From: a virus
IMG/VR virus record: IMGVR_UViG_3300036806_000063
Coordinates: 1 to 30,865 of that record
Length of the DNA: 30,865 nucleotides
Strand: one strand, 5' to 3'
Shown here: one piece after another, positions 5,299-28,894 of the stretch
Numbering within the stretch: the first letter of the stretch is position 1
Layout of the letters: each line of letters starts with the position of its first letter
The notes under the pieces: generated by a model
What the model was told of the DNA's origin: nothing
Seen by the model: the letters and a program-made list of their open reading frames with translations, nothing else
Databases searched by the model: none
Made by a program: the position numbers and the translations under genes

Positions 5299-8061
5299 TC
5301 ACGTGGTCTGATTGCTATTGTTCTGAGTATAGCCGATGACGACGTTCCACAACTCGAGCGCCGTGGCCGTGGCGCCGGAATCCGCGAGCAAGACCGACGC
5401 TTGATAGGCGTTATTCTGCGAGTCGATGACGGTGCTCAATCCGCTCGAGGTCACGAGCTGCACCGCGCTCGATGAGCTATCCGTCTCGGGATGCGCGATC
5501 GTCGTGACCGCACCCGTGGTATGGGAAATCTGATCGACGCTCACCGTGAGTCGTTCCGTCGCCGGCGTGACGTAGGTCAACTTCCCGTAGATCGAGACCG
5601 ACGTGACCGTCACGCCGTTCGAGATTTTCAAACTCAGCGTGCCTTGCGCCTTGATCGGGTTCGAGCCGCTGTCCGCCTCGAACGTGCCTTTCGTCGGGTT
5701 CGGCCGCGCGGACGTGATCGTCGCGCTCGTCAGCGTGAACCCGCTGCCGACGTACGTGTCGAACTTCGACGCGACGTTGTTTAGGTACGCGCCCTGAATG
5801 TGCACGACGCGGAGCTGCACGCCGTTCCCGCCCGGCGCCGAGAACCCGACGATCGTGACGAATGCGGTCTGTCCGAACGTGAGCGTCGTGAAGTGCGTTT
5901 GTGTGGCCGTGTGCGCGCCGCCCAGGTTGATGAGCGTGCCGCTCGCGGCGACCGTGGCGTCAGCCGGATAGCCCGACGTCGAGAACGACCACCGAATCGA
6001 CTGCACGTCGCCGGGGAAGTCCGCGGTCCAACTCGTCTGGCCGTTAGCATCCACCGCGACCGTCCCCTGCGGGTTCTGCGTGGCGACCGGGATCGGATCG
6101 CCGCCGATCACATATGCGAATGAGGAAACGGTCGAGATGTCTTGGAGCGCCGCGCCGTAGATGTTGAACGCCGGCAGTTTGAAGAACACGGTCTGCCCGG
6201 CCTTCCCCTGCGGCCACGGCAGGCGCGCGACCGCGCCGTCCGCGAGGAGAAAGTGCTTCCCGCTCGCGTGTGAGTTGATCGTTGAGCCGTACAGTCCGCG
6301 GTAGAGCGTCGTGAGGTTGTAGTGCCCGGCGCTCGTGAGCGCCGCGTTCTTGTACGCAATCCATTCCGGCGATGCTGTCGACGCGCCCTCGACGAAACAC
6401 AGCGATTGCAAGTTGGCGAAGTCTGTCGCCGAGAACGCGGTCAGCGTGCGACCGGAGGCTGTCACGTCAACGGAGAGCGTGCTCGAGCCATCTTGCACCG
6501 GGTACGCGCTACCGAAACTCGCCAGCGTGCCGGTGAGTGTGCCGTATGCCGCCTTGCCGTTCACGATCCCGATTTGCGAGAACGTGATATTGTCCGTCGA
6601 GATCCAGACCTCACAGCCGCCCCAATTCGCGCCGCCCGTCGCGCCGAGCCACAACTCGAGCGGCGCCGACGCGAGCGCAGACGGACCCTCGACGATGATC
6701 GGCGTCGAGGTGTCTCCGGGGGCAACGTTGGCGTTCGGCATCGTGCCGCTGCCGGTCGCCGTGCCGTAGCGCGTGGCGCTCGCGGTGCCAAACGGCCAGT
6801 CCTCGGCGGTGCACTCGATGCCCGCCTCGTCAGCGAGCTCCTCGACGACGGTGAGGCGCACGGGCGTGACCGACAGCCCGGTTTGCGCCTCGGTCAGCGT
6901 CACGAGGTCCATCGGTTCGAGGAGCGAGTATTTCCAGCCGAGCCGAAACTGATAAGTGTTGCGCACGTTCTGCTCGCGCTGTAACCGCACTTGCGCGACC
7001 TGCTGCGCGACCGCGGCGCTCTTGATCGAGTGGAGCGTGAGCGTCGGCATCGCGACGAGGCCGTACGTCGACGCCGCGAATTGATCGGTCGCCGGATACG
7101 TCGTCGTGTTGTAGTCGAGGTCACGGTCTTGATATTCGACCACCACTTGATTAAACGCCGTCGACGGATCCTTGCGCGTGATCGTGATCGGGTCGAGATC
7201 CGCGCCACGTGGGAGAAAATCGACGTCGGTGAGATCGTAGAGCGGCGTCGTGTTCGGCGTGTAGGTGTGGCCGTTGCCCGTGCCTGGCGTGTCGCCGTAC
7301 GGCACGAATTTGAGCACGCCATCCGACCACACCGCGCCGGTGTTCGAGACCTCTAACAACTCGTTCAGGATGTCGGTCGTCGCGACCTGCGTGTCGATCG
7401 CCGGGCTCGCGAAGAGAGAGAACGCCGCGCAGTAGTCGGCGAACGTGCCGAGCGGTCCGATGCGCGCCGAGCTCCACCCGAGCCCGTATTGCGTCGACTC
7501 GAGCAAGTCGGGGATGATGTCGGCCGGGCTTGCGTCGATGACGCCGGAGTTATTCGCGCCCGGCGCGAAGCGTTTGAACCCTTGGATCTCCCACGAGTAG
7601 GACGAGAGCGAATCGTTCGGGAGTGGCGCGTTCGGGTTCGCGACATAGGCGGTGAGTTGGTACGGCACCGCCTGCGCGAGAAAGTTGGTTGTGAGATACG
7701 ACCACGCGGCCGGCGCGATCGTGCCGAGGAACAGCGACCACCCGTTGACGTCGTAGTTGCCGGCGAACGTGAGGTGTCCGTCTTTGTCACGCCACGTAAA
7801 AAAGATGCCGGCGATCGGCCCCTCGCACAGACCGATCGCGATCGGGGCCGTGTATTGTGTGCCGCCACTCGCCCCTTTGCTCTGCTGCTTCGACTGGCCG
7901 CCAGGGATCGGCAGCTTCGGCATGTGAATGAGGTTCCCAGCGATGCGCGCGGTGCCGTAGACGATCGGGATCGGTGAGCCATAGACCGAGGTCTGCACAC
8001 GAAACCCGCCGATGCCCGTTTGCTTCGGCGCGCCGTAGAACAGCCGCATCAAACCAGACAC
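5299..8061 (-). CDS. Large tail tip protein (Phage-tail_3-like, GTA-type tip)
   Basis: This is the host-contact protein of the tail tip, about 920 residues and the largest gene here. The N-terminus (MRLFYGAPKQTGIGGFRVQT) and the ARIAGNLIHMPKL region are typical of tail proteins following the NlpC/P60 tip peptidase. Residues around 280-430 (FNQVVVEYQDRDLDYNT, then QFRLGWKYSLLEPMDLVTLT) match the Phage-tail_3 type. The C-terminal third is Ser/Thr/Gly-rich beta sequence, probably the receptor-binding part. GGAGGT (8066-8071) lies 4 bases from a GTG at 8061, the chosen start. GTG 8073 and ATG 8049 are alternatives. It overlaps the peptidase gene by 13 bases. Confidence 0.88.
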   Translation of the reverse strand: MSGLMRLFYGAPKQTGIGGFRVQTSVYGSPIPIVYGTARIAGNLIHMPKLPIPGGQSKQQSKGASGGTQYTAPIAIGLCEGPIAGIFFTWRDKDGHLTFAGNYDVNGWSLFLGTIAPAAWSYLTTNFLAQAVPYQLTAYVANPNAPLPNDSLSSYSWEIQGFKRFAPGANNSGVIDASPADIIPDLLESTQYGLGWSSARIGPLGTFADYCAAFSLFASPAIDTQVATTDILNELLEVSNTGAVWSDGVLKFVPYGDTPGTGNGHTYTPNTTPLYDLTDVDFLPRGADLDPITITRKDPSTAFNQVVVEYQDRDLDYNTTTYPATDQFAASTYGLVAMPTLTLHSIKSAAVAQQVAQVRLQREQNVRNTYQFRLGWKYSLLEPMDLVTLTEAQTGLSVTPVRLTVVEELADEAGIECTAEDWPFGTASATRYGTATGSGTMPNANVAPGDTSTPIIVEGPSALASAPLELWLGATGGANWGGCEVWISTDNITFSQIGIVNGKAAYGTLTGTLASFGSAYPVQDGSSTLSVDVTASGRTLTAFSATDFANLQSLCFVEGASTASPEWIAYKNAALTSAGHYNLTTLYRGLYGSTINSHASGKHFLLADGAVARLPWPQGKAGQTVFFKLPAFNIYGAALQDISTVSSFAYVIGGDPIPVATQNPQGTVAVDANGQTSWTADFPGDVQSIRWSFSTSGYPADATVAASGTLINLGGAHTATQTHFTTLTFGQTAFVTIVGFSAPGGNGVQLRVVHIQGAYLNNVASKFDTYVGSGFTLTSATITSARPNPTKGTFEADSGSNPIKAQGTLSLKISNGVTVTSVSIYGKLTYVTPATERLTVSVDQISHTTGAVTTIAHPETDSSSSAVQLVTSSGLSTVIDSQNNAYQASVLLADSGATATALELWNVVIGYTQNNSNQTT

Positions 8062-8534
8062 GACAACCTCCACGCGCTATGGAGCCGCGCGAACAGTGGT
8101 GTACCTGGCCGACACTCCTCTTCGATCACGCCAGCGCCCCGGAATGCGTGGATCACGCGCCCTTCCTCGCCCCACTCGAGAACGATCGCGCCATGACTGG
8201 CTGACCGGCCATACCGAAAAAGCACGATGTCGCCAGGCGCGGCCGACTCGCGCGGCGCGTTATAGCAGAACTTGGCGACCCACTCGAGAAGCCGGTCGTC
8301 GTCGGTGTGCATGAACCAATCTGGCGCGTAGAACGCGAGCCGAGGCGAGATGTCGGGGACGAGCCCGCACTCCGAATAGACGGCGATGAGGAATTGCCCG
8401 CAATCGACGCCGGTGCCCTTGAGCCGCGCCCCGTGGTGAAACGGTGTGCCGAGCCAGGATCGGGCCGTAGCGACGACTTGGGAGCGACGGGCAAGCACTG
8501 TGGCCGGGATCGCGCCGAGCGATGGCACGGTCAC
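8049..8534 (-). CDS. NlpC/P60 family tail tip peptidase
   Basis: This 161-residue cysteine peptidase of the NlpC/P60 fold is located in the tail tip, where such proteins open peptidoglycan during DNA entry. The conserved segments are visible: WLGTPFHHGA at residues 27-36, the nucleophile Cys45 in GVDCGQF, His114 in SHGAIVLEWG and His129 in VIHAF. The length matches the gene-transfer-agent gp14 class. GTG 8534 overlaps the TGA of the preceding gene (GTGA), so the start is set there. It sits in the standard order DUF2460, DUF2163, NlpC/P60, tip protein. Confidence 0.92.
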   Translation of the reverse strand: MTVPSLGAIPATVLARRSQVVATARSWLGTPFHHGARLKGTGVDCGQFLIAVYSECGLVPDISPRLAFYAPDWFMHTDDDRLLEWVAKFCYNAPRESAAPGDIVLFRYGRSASHGAIVLEWGEEGRVIHAFRGAGVIEEECRPGTPLFARLHSAWRLSCLV

Positions 8535-9436
8535 CGGGCGTTCTCCGGCGCCGGCACGTAGGGATAGCCGCGGAAGTGGGCCAGGTTCGCGAACTTGGTC
8601 GTGCAGGTCGCTTGCAGTTTGTCGCACCCGGGGAAGATGCTAAATGCGTCACCGTTTACCGGAGCAAACCGGAACGGGGCCGTCGGGATGACCGTGCCCC
8701 CGGCGTTCGTGAACGTTTTGACCGTGCGCGTTGAATCGGGACCGAGGCCGGCGTTCTGCCCCGAGGTGAACGTGATCGCGCCCAGCTCGAAATAGCCGTC
8801 CGCCTGCGCAAGGTTCGTGAGGATGACGCTCGCCGTGGATCCGCCGGCGGCAGCGCCGCCCACGGTGAACGCCGCGCGATTGAGCGTGCACCCCGCGTCG
8901 TACACGTTGTGCAGACAGCCAGGCGACCAGAGGTTGCGCGGAAGTGTGAGCTGGAGATAGGTGAGATCCGAGTTCACCGTGATCTGCACGCCGGTGCGCG
9001 TCGACACGACCTGGCCGACGACGCCCCAAAAGTTAATGAGCGTGCCCTTCGAGACGTCGCCCCACGTCGCCATGTAGAGCCGCTCGAGCACGACGCGCGC
9101 GCCGTCGAAGTAGCCGGTCCGCCCCTGCTGCGGGAGCGGCAGACCGAGGAGCGTTTGCCCGGCCACGGTCGCGAGCGTAATCGTCATCGAGTCAACCTCG
9201 AGACCAACGATGAGCTTCACGGCGGCGCGGGTGAACGTCGGGTACGGCGTGCCCTCGCCGCCGGCGAAGAACGTGTGGCTCGCGTTGTCGACCTGGCTCA
9301 CGGCAGTCACGTCACCGGGCGCGCTCGTGAGGTAGAACGTCGGCCCGTTGACGGGAATAACCGTCAACAGATCCGCGACGTAGAATTCGGTCGAGGAATT
9401 GAGGAACGCGATGAGCGCAGGCGAAGCGTTACGCAC
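8531..9436 (-). CDS. Tail tip hub protein, DUF2163/phage BR0599 family
   Basis: The protein has 301 residues. It carries hallmarks of the DUF2163/BR0599 family (gene transfer agent gp13 class): an N-terminal distal-tail-like domain (YVADLLTVIPVNGPTFYLTS), a central Cys motif CLHNVYDAGCTLNRAAF, and the C-terminal PGCDKLQATCTTKFANLAHF followed by FRGYPYVP. Homologues form the tail hub and some bind an iron-sulfur cluster through conserved cysteines; four to five cysteines are visible here. The start is GTG 9436, three bases after the previous stop. The next gene overlaps it by 4 bases. Confidence 0.9.
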   Translation of the reverse strand: MRNASPALIAFLNSSTEFYVADLLTVIPVNGPTFYLTSAPGDVTAVSQVDNASHTFFAGGEGTPYPTFTRAAVKLIVGLEVDSMTITLATVAGQTLLGLPLPQQGRTGYFDGARVVLERLYMATWGDVSKGTLINFWGVVGQVVSTRTGVQITVNSDLTYLQLTLPRNLWSPGCLHNVYDAGCTLNRAAFTVGGAAAGGSTASVILTNLAQADGYFELGAITFTSGQNAGLGPDSTRTVKTFTNAGGTVIPTAPFRFAPVNGDAFSIFPGCDKLQATCTTKFANLAHFRGYPYVPAPENAR

Positions 9437-9439
9437 GAT

Positions 9440-10045
9440 CTACGAACCGATCACGGATTTGAACGCGAGCCCGCCCTGTGACCAAAACGCGCTATTGAAG
9501 TTCGTGAAGTCCGGCGCGTCCGTGTCGAACCGCGCGCGCCAGTAGTAGCCGCCGGTCCACGTGAGCGCGTGCCCGACCGAGACAGGCGCGGTGAACGTGA
9601 CGAGGCCGTTCACAATGTTGTAATCGACGCCGGCGGTTTTAACGACGCCGTTGTCTTTGATCACCGGCACGCCGTTCAGGTTGTAGACGAATTCGGCGAA
9701 CCCCGCGACGGAGAACGTGCGCAAGAGTTGGAACGCCGTCGTCGCGCCGTCGCCCGTGGCGAACTGCTGGCCCGTGACCGTGTTGTCGGTCGGATCGCTG
9801 TAGAGGAACGAGTCGAACATCCCCTGCCGAGCGAGATAGAAATTCGCGAGGGTCTGGAAGTCGGGCGTGGTCGGGTCGATGCGGAGAAAGTTGTGCACGA
9901 CGTTCCACCGCCATTGCGGATACGGCGCGAACGCCGCGCGCAGCTCGCGGAAGCTGACCGACGCCTGGACCTTGGTCGCGAAGTTCGGCGTCTTGACGAC
10001 CGGCCATCCGAGCCCGGCGAGCGAGGGGAACACCGCGTTCGACAT
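9440..10045 (-). CDS. Distal tail protein, DUF2460/TIGR02217 family
   Basis: This 201-residue protein follows the tape measure gene. It begins MSNAVFPSLAGLGWPVVKTP and contains YPQWRWNVVHNFLR (residues 42-55) and LANFYLARQGMFDSFLYSDP (about 66-85), the core of the DUF2460 family. These proteins form the distal tail ring joining tube and tip, equivalent to gene transfer agent gp12. Full family length, ATG start, three bases from both neighbours. It should act with the DUF2163, NlpC/P60 and tip proteins encoded next. Confidence 0.92.
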   Translation of the reverse strand: MSNAVFPSLAGLGWPVVKTPNFATKVQASVSFRELRAAFAPYPQWRWNVVHNFLRIDPTTPDFQTLANFYLARQGMFDSFLYSDPTDNTVTGQQFATGDGATTAFQLLRTFSVAGFAEFVYNLNGVPVIKDNGVVKTAGVDYNIVNGLVTFTAPVSVGHALTWTGGYYWRARFDTDAPDFTNFNSAFWSQGGLAFKSVIGS

Positions 10046-10048
10046 CGC

Positions 10049-11719
10049 TCACCCTCGGCCGGGCGCGGTCGGGAGCCGGATCCCTTGCCCGACGCCGGCG
10101 ACGACGGCCTTCGCGAACGTCGTCGAGTTTTTCATCGCGAAGTCGTGGAATGAGCCGGCGTCCATCGTTTGAATACTCACATTGTATTGCGGCGCGGCAC
10201 CGCCGGAGGACGACGACGACGCTGCGCCGCCGCTACTGCCGCCACCACCGCTACTACTGCCGCCGCCGCCAAAGGAACCCGCGAGCGCGAGCACAGCGGC
10301 CAACGTGCCGAGTCCGATCGCCGCGGCGGTGATCGGGTCGAACTTGCTGGATGCCCAGGCCCACGCCGCCGCCGCCGCCTTCGCGGCCTGAATCCCGATG
10401 AACTGGACGGCGGCCCACGCCTCTTGCGCGATCTCGTTCGTGACGCCGCCAACTGTCAGCCCCTGCCGCGCGAGCCACATTGCCGCGTGGCTCTCAAGCA
10501 TCTTGGCCTCGGCCGTCGCGGCCTCGACGACGAGGTCTCGCATGAGCGTTCGGAAGAAATCGCGCATCGTTTCGCCGCCGCGCTGAAAGCCTTTGATCGC
10601 ATTGTTCCATGCGTCGGGGATCGCGTTGAACGTGTCCTGCCATCCTTTCGCCACGTCCGCCTGCTGCTTCTCCATCCACTTTTGTTCTTCCTCGGCGCTC
10701 TTTTGCATCGCCGCCGCCAGCTCGGCCGCGAGCTTGCGATCGCGCAGCCAATCCGCATAGCCGCCGTCGTTCGGCGTCTCGACAGTCGGCGCCGGTGTCT
10801 TTGGGTTGAGCAGTGCGTTCAGCGACGGGTCGTTCGCGAGCGCCGCCGTCGGGTCTTCTTGTTTGAGCAAGTGCAGCCAGACGAGCAGTCCCTTCACCTG
10901 CTGCACGAGTACAACGAATTGGTTGGCGACCCAGAGCACGACGTGGCCGAGCGTCTCGAGCAACGGCATGAAGATTTCCGACAGCTCTCGACCGGCGACG
11001 GCCATTTCGGCGTGATAGACTTTCATCGAGTCGACATACTTGTTGATCGCTTCGACGTCGTCCTCGCCCATCGTAATGCCGAGCTGGTCGGACTGCTTCT
11101 CGAGCGCCTCGATGCCGCCGGCGCCCTCGTTGAGCAGCGGGATCAACTCCGCACCGGCGCGGCCAAACAAGTTCATCGCGATCGCGGTCTTGCCGGTGCC
11201 GTCCTCCATCGTCGCGAACCGTTGCGCGACTTCGAGGAGGAGCGTGTTGAGCGGCACGAGGTTGCCGTTCGCGTCGGCGATCGAGATCCCGAGCGCGTGG
11301 AACGCTTCGGCCGCCGGCGTGGTCGCGCTCAGTTTCGCCGCCTCGACGTTGCGCGCGAGTCGCTCCATGCCCGTCTCGAGCTGCTCGAACGAGACGTCGG
11401 ACAGGTCAGCGGCGTAGCGTAGCCGCGAGAGCTCCTCGGCTGTCGTGCCGATTTTCTGCGCGCCGATCTCGAGCTGCTTTCCAAGTTCGGCGGTGCTCGA
11501 GATCATTTCTCCGAACAACTCGCCACCTTCGACGAGCGCCATGATCGCGAGGAGCGGACCGAGCGCGGCCTCGATCGACGCGGACATCGCCTCGAACGAT
11601 CCCGCGATGGCTTCGGTGCCTTCGGCAACGACGCCGGCCGCCTCGGTCATCGACGCGACGAGGCCGGTGATGTTGCCGGCAATGTTGACTAGGACGCCGT
11701 CGACCGTCTCGTCTGCCAT
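10049..11719 (-). CDS. Tail tape measure protein
   Basis: The protein has 556 residues and lies directly after the frameshifted chaperone pair, the canonical tape measure position. It is mostly helical with hydrophobic stretches at about 39-72 and 235-290, and contains the tape-measure-type pattern TAEELSRLRYAADLSDVSFE and AMNLFGRAGAELIPLL. A Trp/Met-rich helical segment (EEEQKWMEKQQADVAKGW) comes before a Gly/Ser-rich linker near residues 493-520. If about 0.15 nm per residue applies, the tail would be roughly 80 nm, a short to medium siphovirus tail. ATG 11719 is 13 bases downstream of the -1 frame ORF stop. Confidence 0.9.
   Translation of the reverse strand: MADETVDGVLVNIAGNITGLVASMTEAAGVVAEGTEAIAGSFEAMSASIEAALGPLLAIMALVEGGELFGEMISSTAELGKQLEIGAQKIGTTAEELSRLRYAADLSDVSFEQLETGMERLARNVEAAKLSATTPAAEAFHALGISIADANGNLVPLNTLLLEVAQRFATMEDGTGKTAIAMNLFGRAGAELIPLLNEGAGGIEALEKQSDQLGITMGEDDVEAINKYVDSMKVYHAEMAVAGRELSEIFMPLLETLGHVVLWVANQFVVLVQQVKGLLVWLHLLKQEDPTAALANDPSLNALLNPKTPAPTVETPNDGGYADWLRDRKLAAELAAAMQKSAEEEQKWMEKQQADVAKGWQDTFNAIPDAWNNAIKGFQRGGETMRDFFRTLMRDLVVEAATAEAKMLESHAAMWLARQGLTVGGVTNEIAQEAWAAVQFIGIQAAKAAAAAWAWASSKFDPITAAAIGLGTLAAVLALAGSFGGGGSSSGGGGSSGGAASSSSSGGAAPQYNVSIQTMDAGSFHDFAMKNSTTFAKAVVAGVGQGIRLPTAPGRG
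10198..10272 (-). repeat. Low-complexity GGC/AGC-type tract coding Gly/Ser linker
   Basis: A short tract of GCC-, GAC- and TAC-type triplets on the plus strand encodes the Gly/Ser linker near the C-terminus of the tape measure protein. It stays in frame and looks like ordinary low-complexity coding sequence, prone to length change by slippage. Confidence 0.6.
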
Positions 11720-11732
11720 GCGCTCGCCTCGC

Positions 11733-12005
11733 TCACCGTTGATTCGCCGCCGCCTTCACGCCGGCGACGAACGATGCGACGTCCTGTTCAGTCGAGCGCG
11801 CCGCGCTCTGGCCGTCTCCGACGCCCGCCACGGCGTCGATGATCGACTTTAACACTACATGCGTCGGCGGTTCCTCGGTCCAGTAGAGCAGCAGCTCGAG
11901 CGCGTCGTCGATCGTGGTCTCGTCGAGCTGCGGGTACGTCCACCCCGTCGCGGTGATTAGCCGGCCACAGATGCGCCGGACATCGAAGTCGACGGGGCCT
12001 CCGCT
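11733..12005 (-). CDS. Tail assembly chaperone C-terminal extension, -1 frame (gpT-like)
   Basis: This hidden ORF has no start codon of its own in its useful length. It lies in the -1 frame relative to the 11957-12358 gene and runs to TGA at 11733-11735. After the slip the product reads SGGPVDFDVRRICGRLITAT, then GWTYPQLDETTIDDALELLL, ending AGVKAAANQR. The WTYPQLDETT/ALELLLYW pattern fits tail chaperone extensions placed between the tail tube and tape measure genes. The frame is open up to a TGA near 12089. GGGGGAA at 12005-12011 is in the X XXY YYZ register and is the likely slip site, giving a fusion of about 208 residues (118 plus 90). Confidence 0.8.
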   Translation of the reverse strand, partial: SGGPVDFDVRRICGRLITATGWTYPQLDETTIDDALELLLYWTEEPPTHVVLKSIIDAVAGVGDGQSAARSTEQDVASFVAGVKAAANQR

Positions 12006-12358
12006 TCCCCCGTGGGAACGCGCGCCCCCGGTGTGCCACTGTAGACGGCGTACTTGCAGCAGTTCGCGAGCGCGAGAAACCCCTCGTCATAGGCCATCTC
12101 GTCGAGCGCGCGGGCGATCACGTCGACCGACGTGTCCGACGCGGCGGCGGCGATCGTGATCATCGTGTCGATCTCGGCCGGGGACGGAAGCTGTCCGGCT
12201 TTCAGTCGTCCCGCCGCCGTGGTCACGAGCGCCGTGACCGCCCCGTGCAACTCCGGATTTTTTCGGAGCTGTCCCATTCGCAGTTTCGTGACGCGGAGCG
12301 TGAGCGTGCCGACGTCGATTACGAACGCCGGCACGGTCGGTGTGGTCGGACTCGTCAT
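11957..12358 (-). CDS. Tail assembly chaperone (gpG-like)
   Basis: The protein has 133 residues, with ATG 12358 fourteen bases after the tail tube gene. The N-terminus is beta-like (VPAFVIDVGTLTLRVTKLR) and the rest helical, including DTMITIAAAASDTSVDVIAR and DEMAYDEGFLALANCCKYAV. Proteins of this size between the tube and tape measure genes coat the tape measure during tail assembly and are made as a short form plus a longer frameshifted form. The short form here ends STSMSGASVAG. The assignment rests on position, size and the -1 frame partner rather than on strong sequence similarity. Confidence 0.8.
   Translation of the reverse strand: MTSPTTPTVPAFVIDVGTLTLRVTKLRMGQLRKNPELHGAVTALVTTAAGRLKAGQLPSPAEIDTMITIAAAASDTSVDVIARALDEMAYDEGFLALANCCKYAVYSGTPGARVPTGEAEAPSTSMSGASVAG
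12005..12011 (-). other. Candidate -1 frameshift slip site GGGGGAA
   Basis: In the chaperone frame the codons read ..G GGG GAA, matching the register needed for slippage back by one base. The P-site GGG can re-pair perfectly; the A-site GAA re-pairs only partly (to GGA), so the heptamer is not the ideal form. It lies 48 bases before the end of the upstream ORF, inside the overlap of the two frames. No downstream pseudoknot was worked out. Confidence 0.6.
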
Positions 12359-12372
12359 GCGCGCAAGACTCC

Positions 12373-13110
12373 TTACTCGCTCGAGTAGAGATCCAGCACT
12401 CGACCGAGGCTGTCGGCGTACGCCTCGAACGGCATCGAGAGCATTGTGAAATCAGTGTTCTTGAATGTGAAGTCGAGGCCGGGGACAACGACGGAGTAGA
12501 GCTTGATGCCGCTCGTCTGGCCGCCGTACTGATTGAACAGCGCGCCGGTGAACGTGTTGGCCGCGCCCATGAGCGAATTCGAGAGCGACACCGTCTGGCC
12601 GGTGGCGGCGGTGTAGCTGTAGTTCATGCTCACGACGTGGCCTTGGTCCGCGCTCGCGAACGTATACACGCCGGCGCTCACCGCATACTGTCCCGTGCCT
12701 GGCGCCGAGGCCACGCGCGTCATCGGCTTGGATGCGCTCAGATCGTACACGCTGAGATCGGCGCCGAAGTTTGCCGAGTTCAACACCGTCACCTGAAACG
12801 GCGTCGTCGGGATCGTGGCCGTCTCGCCGATCGCGCCGATGACTTGGCCCGTGGCAATCGTTGCGCCGGACAGCGCCTGTTTGATGAGCGAGCCGGTGAA
12901 CGACGCGAACTTGGCCGTGCCGGAGATCGCCAACTCGGCCTCGGCCACTGCCGCCGCGACCTTGTTCTGTCCGTACAACTTTTTGAGGCTCGAGCTCGAC
13001 TTGAGCGAGATGTCTTGCAGCGTCGCGCAGATGATGGGCGTCGGGTTCGAGCCCGCCGGCGTGAACGCGAGCAGGCCCGATCCAAAGCCAATTTGGCCGC
13101 CGTTCGGCAT
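12373..13110 (-). CDS. Major tail tube protein
   Basis: This 245-residue protein is rich in Ser, Thr, Ala and Gly with many short beta strands, as expected for a tail tube subunit. It begins MPNGGQIGFGSGLLAFTPAG. The central part contains LKKLYGQNKVAAAVAEAELA and FASFTGSLIKQALSG. The C-terminal part (GIKLYSVVVPGLDFTFKNTD, then FEAYADSLGRVLDLYSSE) fits tube proteins of HK97-like siphoviruses. It lies just ahead of the tail chaperone and tape measure genes, the standard place for the tube gene. The ATG is 2 bases from the previous stop. Confidence 0.85.
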   Translation of the reverse strand: MPNGGQIGFGSGLLAFTPAGSNPTPIICATLQDISLKSSSSLKKLYGQNKVAAAVAEAELAISGTAKFASFTGSLIKQALSGATIATGQVIGAIGETATIPTTPFQVTVLNSANFGADLSVYDLSASKPMTRVASAPGTGQYAVSAGVYTFASADQGHVVSMNYSYTAATGQTVSLSNSLMGAANTFTGALFNQYGGQTSGIKLYSVVVPGLDFTFKNTDFTMLSMPFEAYADSLGRVLDLYSSE

Positions 13111-27335: not shown

Positions 27336-28010
27336 TTACACGCCCCACGCGGTAAGCGTGTTCTGAACCTGCTTCAATTTGTCGGCGCTCGTCGTCCGGT
27401 AGATGTGCCAGAAGTAGACGGGCGGGATCTCGAGCCGCTTACAGAGGTCGAGCCAGGCGACGACCTTGAGCCCGTAGCGCGCCTCGTTGCACGCGATCAC
27501 ATAGTCGTCGATGAGATGCGCGCGTGACACGCCGCCGGCGATCTCGACGACCTGGGGATGGATGGCGTCGAGAATGCTGTCGATAGTGAGAATGCGCGGC
27601 CACTCCCACACATCGCGGCACCAGTCCGAGGACACGTTCATCCAATTGCCGGGGGAGATGAATCGGCCGTCGCGCCGGAACCACGGGTTCGCGGCAAAGC
27701 GAATCGTTGAGCGGTCGAGGCCGTGATGGAGGACCGTGTCTTTCGATAGGTGCGCCGTGACGTCGGGGGCGTCGGGATGAATGAGCGCGTCGGCGTCGAA
27801 GAACAACGACCAATCGTCGTCTCGGTCGAGGCTGAGTTGCCCCACCTGAAATTTCTCCATCGTCACCGGCCAGCACGGCCAGCGGCGCTCGGTAATAACG
27901 ACGAACTCGGCGCCGATCTTCCGCGCGTAGTTCTTGAGCAGTGGGAAAGTGAGCGCGGTGATCTCTGGCTCGTAGTCGTCGACCGAGAGCGTGTAGAGCG
28001 TCTTGTTCAT
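27336..28010 (-). CDS. Glycosyltransferase-like protein (GT-A type)
   Basis: This 224-residue protein resembles GT-A glycosyltransferases of the GMA12/GT34-like or related type. The start MNKTLYTLSVDDYEPEITAL leads to a Rossmann-like strand-helix run, with the metal- and sugar-nucleotide-binding D-x-D as DAD at residues 72-74 (SLFFDADALIHPD), then APDVTAHLSKDTVLHHGLDR. Tyr/Trp-rich segments and PPVYFWHIYRTTSADKLKQV close the domain. No membrane helix. ATG 28010 overlaps the methyltransferase TGA (ATGA). It may glycosylate a virion protein, phage DNA base or host glycan; substrate unknown. Confidence 0.8.
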   Translation of the reverse strand: MNKTLYTLSVDDYEPEITALTFPLLKNYARKIGAEFVVITERRWPCWPVTMEKFQVGQLSLDRDDDWSLFFDADALIHPDAPDVTAHLSKDTVLHHGLDRSTIRFAANPWFRRDGRFISPGNWMNVSSDWCRDVWEWPRILTIDSILDAIHPQVVEIAGGVSRAHLIDDYVIACNEARYGLKVVAWLDLCKRLEIPPVYFWHIYRTTSADKLKQVQNTLTAWGV

Positions 28011-28594
28011 GGGTGCGACACGTAGGGGCGGAGGACGACGATCGAATCAACGAGGGTCGAGAGATCGAAGGGCGTGCCGTTACAGAACCGCGTGACTGCT
28101 TCGGCGACGTCGGGATAATCAAAGTCGTGCAGCGCAATCGTGCCGGTCTGTTTCACGAGACGATCGGCGTGTCGAAGGTCGCGCTCCACAGAGCCGACGT
28201 CGTGCGATCCGTCGATGAACACGAGGTCGAAACTCTCTTCGCGTAAGAGTGGGCAGGCGACGTCGGCCGCGCCGATGATGGCGCACACGCGGTCGCGCAC
28301 GCCGTGCTCGGTGAGTTGGTCGATGAAATGGCCGGCCGTGTCGATGCGCGTCGGGTCGATGCGATCGACGAGCGGCGCGAGGAATGACGGCGCGCCCGGT
28401 TGATGTTCGGCGGATCCGCGGTGATGGTCGACCGAGACGACGAGTTTCGCCGAACGCGCGAGCGCGACCGTCGAGCGGCCAAGAAAGGATCCGATCTCGA
28501 GCACGACGAGATCGCGGGCGAGCGCGGTGAGGTAATCCGCTTCATTCGCCCTGAGCCAGCCCGGCGGAAGGTCGTCCGGCACGATGTCGCTCAT
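28007..28594 (-). CDS. Class I SAM-dependent methyltransferase (Methyltransf_24-like)
   Basis: This 195-residue enzyme has a Rossmann fold. Motif I is VLEIGSFLGRSTVALARS (residues 31-48), the acidic end of strand 2 is VVSVDHH (52-58), and FDLVFIDGSHDVGSVERDLR (122-141) holds the motif typical of the Methyltransf_24 family. IALHDFDYPDVAEA follows at about 153-166. ATG 28594 overlaps the TGA of the previous gene (ATGA), so the N-terminus starts MSDIVPDDLPPGW; the longer upstream reading is Arg-rich and spurious. Such enzymes in phages often methylate sugars or small molecules, so it may act with the adjacent glycosyltransferase. Confidence 0.88.
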   Translation of the reverse strand: MSDIVPDDLPPGWLRANEADYLTALARDLVVLEIGSFLGRSTVALARSAKLVVSVDHHRGSAEHQPGAPSFLAPLVDRIDPTRIDTAGHFIDQLTEHGVRDRVCAIIGAADVACPLLREESFDLVFIDGSHDVGSVERDLRHADRLVKQTGTIALHDFDYPDVAEAVTRFCNGTPFDLSTLVDSIVVLRPYVSHP

Positions 28595-28842
28595 TCTTTC
28601 CTCGCGAGCTGCTCGTGGAGATCCGCGATCGTCTGCTCGCGCTCGTACGCCAAGTTCTGCCAATACCGAGCGCCGGTGCGGTAGATCGCGAGCGCCTCGG
28701 CGACCGGGACGATGATCGAGCCGTGTCCGGTCGTGTCGACAACGGCGGTAATGTTGATGTTCACGCCGCCGTCGACGAGCGGCACCTTTGCGCCGTCCGC
28801 CATCTGCACGAACATGTTGCCGTGCTCGTCGCGCTGAATCAT
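28591..28842 (-). CDS. Small hypothetical protein before methyltransferase
   Basis: The gene encodes 83 residues from ATG 28842 (MIQRDEHGNMFVQMADGAKV). An upstream GTG at 28884 would add 14 residues; neither start has a good ribosome binding site, so the start is uncertain. It is beta-rich at first (VNINITAVVDTTGHGSIIVP), ending in a charged helix (YEREQTIADLHEQLARKE). It is coupled to the methyltransferase by ATGA. No family is recognised; it may be a small structural or accessory protein of the same module. Confidence 0.65.
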   Translation of the reverse strand: MIQRDEHGNMFVQMADGAKVPLVDGGVNINITAVVDTTGHGSIIVPVAEALAIYRTGARYWQNLAYEREQTIADLHEQLARKE

Positions 28843-28894
28843 ACGCGGGCTGTGAGAGAATGGTGAAAAGACTGGTGAAGACACGCACCGCCCC

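Follow-up and report, generated by a model that had tools for sequence, protein, structure and literature searches.

Canonical slip heptamers follow the pattern XXXYYYZ, of which the GGGAAAG of phage lambda is an example. In lambda, the tape measure protein is the partner of the unshifted product (G), and the shifted product (GT) recruits the major tail protein through its T part, with approximately 30 G made per GT (PMC5009743). Among the SEA-PHAGES chaperone frameshifts, GGGGGAA was found in all of approximately a thousand motifs of its class, for which the PRFect authors raise G:U re-pairing (PMC10885494). The same heptamer, with an internal Shine-Dalgarno (SD) sequence and a pseudoknot, has been proposed for the tail assembly genes of corynephage phi16 (PMC5506516). 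The arrangement described below is itself already known, and so is the use of GGGGGAA in phage chaperones.

We analyzed a complete IMG/VR virus record of 30,865 bases (referred to here as the window). Its putative chaperone locus resembles lambda gpG/gpGT in gene order, in having a short 0-frame open reading frame (ORF) overlapped by a -1-frame ORF that has no independent start, and in the in-register heptamer; a few relatives of the window family also carry heptamers of the GGGAAAN type, including the GGGAAAG of lambda. It differs from lambda in that the window proteins have no detectable similarity to curated chaperone families and in that the window heptamer, GGGGGAA, is noncanonical and depends on G:U pairing in the A site. 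With the SEA-PHAGES GGGGGAA class ("fivetwo") and phi16, the locus shares the heptamer and its gene position; for phi16, as predicted here, an internal SD sequence and downstream structure have also been proposed. Those phages have actinobacterial hosts, whereas the named relatives of the window infect Acinetobacter, Pseudomonas, and Brevundimonas. Furthermore, the SEA-PHAGES paper gives GGGGGAA alone for its motif class (PMC10885494), whereas the window family also uses GGGGGAG; a literature search for GGGGGAG and frameshifting returned nothing relevant.

Organization of the locus

A first-pass annotation, made from the letters of the window, had described at positions 11733 to 12358 a lambda gpG/gpGT arrangement, with a -1-frame ORF that has no start of its own and ends in AGVKAAANQR. 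The coordinates and the ORF were correct, and the strand, which had been left unstated, is minus (Table 1). As in loci of the lambda G/GT type, the pair of ORFs is preceded on this strand by the major tail protein gene and followed by the tape measure gene. GGGGGAA at 12005-12011 reads G_GGG_GAA in the frame of the first ORF (G), i.e., in the register that had been claimed, and a slip there joins 118 and 90 residues, which reproduces the expected 208-residue fusion. The -1-frame ORF reaches its stop at 11733 and contains no ATG, GTG, or TTG until a GTG at 11855, from which only approximately 39 codons would be left.

TABLE 1 Features of the G/T locus and its neighbors in the window
Feature	Coordinates	Strand	Evidence
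Major tail protein gene, 245 aa (upstream neighbor)	12373..13110	-	phrog_8234, E 2.8e-41; weak phrog_88 "major tail protein"
G-like tail chaperone ORF (putative), 0-frame, 133 aa	11957..12358	-	Translation; matched by family G profile
Shine-Dalgarno-like GGGGG, starts 18 nt upstream of heptamer	12025..12029	-	Predicted anti-SD duplex
-1-frame ORF, 117 codons open; T part, 90 codons past slip	11733..12086	-	Translation, coding statistics, T profile
Slip heptamer G_GGG_GAA (candidate)	12005..12011	-	Sequence; conserved in relatives
Predicted stem-loop downstream of heptamer	11942..11998	-	Outer stem of 9 bp formed by 11998-11990 and 11950-11942
Tape measure protein gene, 556 aa (downstream neighbor)	10049..11719	-	phrog_8462, phrog_2276, and further families named "tail length tape measure protein" (lowest E, 2e-33)

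Routine gene calling had been expected to miss the second half and to leave a gap of approximately 220 bases. In the window, 224 bases separate the G stop from the -1 stop, but a gap is not the only outcome of such calling: Acinetobacter phage 5W (MT349887) received a truncated ORF. In that genome (L014:5056-5343), the annotated T is a 77-aa hypothetical protein in its own right that begins at an internal GTG, a start that removes a conserved DW motif, and an in-register GGGGGAA shortly precedes the G stop.

Elsewhere on the minus strand of the window, a tail tip module (5299-10045) encodes DUF2460, a phiJL001 Gp84-like hub, BR0599, and Rcc01698-like proteins, all of them families well known in gene transfer agents and related siphophages, and a methyltransferase gene is present at 28007-28888 (Methyltransf_24, E 3e-17).

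Relatives and protein families

Neither G nor T, used as a single-protein query, found relatives among viral contigs, and tblastn of both against phage records gave no matches. Given that G and T diverge too fast for direct search, relatives were sought through the major tail protein. Searches with this protein yielded 7 phage records, 12 viral contigs, and one Zoogloea metagenome-assembled genome (MAG), and a 13-member alignment of it yielded 80 viral loci, some of which overlapped the earlier finds. The loci are mutually related, and counts over them are therefore not counts of independent observations.

Of 91 related loci, 87 carried a T domain adjoining the major tail protein, as detected with a T profile; homologs of the -1-frame sequence, whose absence had been named as evidence against the first-pass reading, thus exist. 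T of the window scored 64 bits against a T profile built without the window (E 6e-17 for 100,000 sequences), and 86 of the 87 loci had T in the -1 frame with respect to G.

The profile comparison that had been suggested for linking the fusion to tail chaperones did not succeed for the window itself: G and T had no Pfam match and no profile match above the cutoff to the Pfam/NCBIfam tail assembly chaperone families. Single relatives matched Phage_TAC_12, Phage_TAC_19, and tail_chap_PVL weakly (one each). AlphaFold models were of fair to good quality, with pLDDT values of 79.5 for G (a beta hairpin plus helices) and 84.3 for T; sequence and fold searches of the PDB with G and T gave no significant match to a solved chaperone structure, such as one with the HK97 gp13-like fold, and the BFVD fold matches included several proteins named tail assembly chaperone, all with E above 0.001. 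The putative chaperone identity is therefore drawn mainly from where the gene lies, its layout as two ORFs, and the slip site, together with the weak similarities of relatives.

Two PHROG families, both listed without function, recurred among the relatives. The G parts of 39 of 82 loci matched phrog_7947 (the window G was not among them), and the T parts of 37 of 82 matched phrog_8018 (best E in the family, 1.5e-43; the window T weakly, E 7.2e-4). Judged from these matches, PHROG 7947 corresponds to the G part and PHROG 8018 to the T part of a predicted frameshifted chaperone, which is a modest new element of this work. phrog_8018 spans just 78 positions, and the ORFs that went into it had probably been called from internal starts and so truncated.

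Coding and selection in the T frame

In a codon model built from other genes of the window, the G frame scored +0.50 per codon before the slip. Past the slip, the G frame dropped to -0.60 per codon, and the -1 frame there scored +0.46, a value that none of 666 off-frame windows of equal length matched. The G+C content of the T frame by codon position (GC1, 0.68; GC2, 0.49; GC3, 0.85) also resembles that of other genes. The coding frame switches at the slip point. Among the 24 locus pairs close enough to compare, dN was lower than dS in the T frame in all 24, usually several-fold; many of these pairs share members and are not independent tests.

Conservation of the slip heptamer

In-register GGGGGAA or GGGGGAG was present in 69 of 82 nonredundant loci, and other heptamers (AAAAAAA, GGGAAAG/A/C, or CCCTTTG) were present in 10. 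In total, 79 of the 82 loci carried an in-register slip heptamer of a recognized type, which, with the layout, supports the lambda gpG/gpGT arrangement; none was recognized in the remaining three. All 72 copies of GGGGGAR near the junction were in the slip register, with none in the other two. Synonymous codon resampling, in which the G protein sequence is kept fixed, gave an expectation of 7.4 loci with in-register GGGGGAR, compared with 68 observed, of 82. For the window alone, an in-register GGGGGAR would arise in this zone by chance in 8% of resamplings, and the evidence is therefore its conservation in relatives rather than its single occurrence.

Exceptions to this pattern were few. Two loci (L028:3490-3530 and L079:3280-3320) lack a slip heptamer although their T is in the -1 frame, and their G ORF ends AAC CCC TGA; the P-site tRNA could slip by -1 at C_CCC_UGA there while the stop codon occupies the A site. 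L048 has no obvious slip site.

Among the alternatives to frameshifting, the one that survives best, at a very low probability, is that T is a separate small protein made from its own start by coupling or reinitiation near the end of G, with the heptamer being incidental. T is annotated as a separate coding sequence in GenBank records, and 20 of the 79 heptamer-bearing loci have some T-frame ATG, GTG, or TTG between the slip and approximately 15 codons into the T core (ATG in three). In addition, the sole locus with T outside the -1 frame (L081:3500-3600) has a GTG together with an SD-like run immediately ahead of the conserved DW motif, which suggests either a separate T start or a one-base sequencing error in the contig. 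However, the other 59 of the 79 loci have no such start, nor does the window; the start annotated in phage 5W removes part of the conserved domain; and an incidental heptamer is hard to reconcile with the single register of GGGGGAR. Replacement of the slip site by a separate start, which would have counted against the first-pass reading, is not the pattern among the 82 loci, 79 of which keep an in-register heptamer.

Flanking RNA signals

An SD-like element upstream of the heptamer and a structure downstream of it, both predicted, are conserved family-wide and seen in the window. In the window, GGGGG at 12029-12025 would form an anti-SD duplex of -8.6 kcal/mol at offset -19. Across 67 diverse loci, predicted anti-SD pairing peaked approximately 12 to 20 nt before the heptamer, where the mean reached -3.7 kcal/mol compared with approximately -0.4 kcal/mol further upstream. 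The predicted stem-loop of the window has a minimum free energy of -29.7 kcal/mol over 60 nt (z, approximately -2.1 to -2.5), and its outer stem begins 6 nt past the heptamer. For the same 67 loci, the 60-nt stretch beginning 12 nt from the first base of the heptamer had a mean z of -1.29 relative to shuffles, compared with approximately -0.2 at most other positions.

These signals also bear on a second alternative, less probable again than an own start for T, namely that the fusion arises through transcriptional slippage, with the polymerase rather than the ribosome stuttering on the G run. There is a homopolymer run at the junction, and AAAAAAA substitutes for it in a few relatives. Nevertheless, the run consists of just five G residues, its register is strict and a GAR codon comes next, the SD-like element and downstream structure indicate the ribosome, and substitutes such as CCCTTTG and GGGAAAN conform to the heptamer pattern of ribosomal slippage but offer little for a polymerase to stutter on. 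A sequencing error or a decayed gene (i.e., one G-T gene split by an indel), which the frame offset itself and nothing more would favor, is the least credible explanation and is ruled out by the comparative data, since 86 of 87 loci, many of them highly diverged, share this offset, and the T frame is under purifying selection.

Proposed mechanism

We conclude that the locus is, with high probability, a tail assembly chaperone gene of the lambda G/GT type that is expressed by -1 programmed ribosomal frameshifting, as judged from comparative sequence evidence. What the locus and its relatives show are the ORFs and their register, a T frame that is coding and under selection, and the conservation of the slip site and flanking elements; frameshifting in the cell, its efficiency, the tRNAs that slip, and the binding partners of the products are what we infer.

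Under the proposed mechanism, the majority of ribosomes would read 12358-11957 and produce G (133 aa). A minority would pause at G_GGG_GAA, aided by the upstream SD-like GGGGG and the downstream stem-loop. The P-site tRNA would then re-pair from GGG to GGG, and the A-site tRNA for GAA/GAG would re-pair to GGA via a middle G:U pair. The slipped ribosomes would stay in the -1 frame to 11733, yielding the 208-residue G-T fusion. The expected tryptic peptide of the fusion is VPTGESGGPVDFDVR if both tRNAs slip and VPTGGSGGPVDFDVR if the P-site tRNA alone slips, and VPTGEAEAPSTSMSGASVAG would mark unshifted G. By analogy with lambda, G would coat the tape measure protein and T would recruit the major tail protein, and the ratio of the two products would set correct tail assembly.

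Implications

These results correct the annotation of such loci, in which routine calling yields either an empty stretch or a spurious, truncated second gene, and allow two PHROG families of unlisted function (8018 and 7947) to be named. Moreover, the aligned slip sites (GGGGGAA, GGGGGAG, AAAAAAA, GGGAAAN, and CCCTTTG), all at one gene position, provide a comparative resource for the rules of bacterial heptamers.

More tentatively, and with well under even credence, we suggest that a large unannotated chaperone family may have settled on G_GGG_GAR (including the little-described GGGGGAG) in combination with an SD-like element and a stem-loop, and that some lineages may have swapped to other heptamers or to stop-codon-assisted -1 slippage at C_CCC_UGA. 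If this is true, the G_GGG_GAR family would be a natural test set for relating A-site G:U re-pairing to frameshift efficiency.
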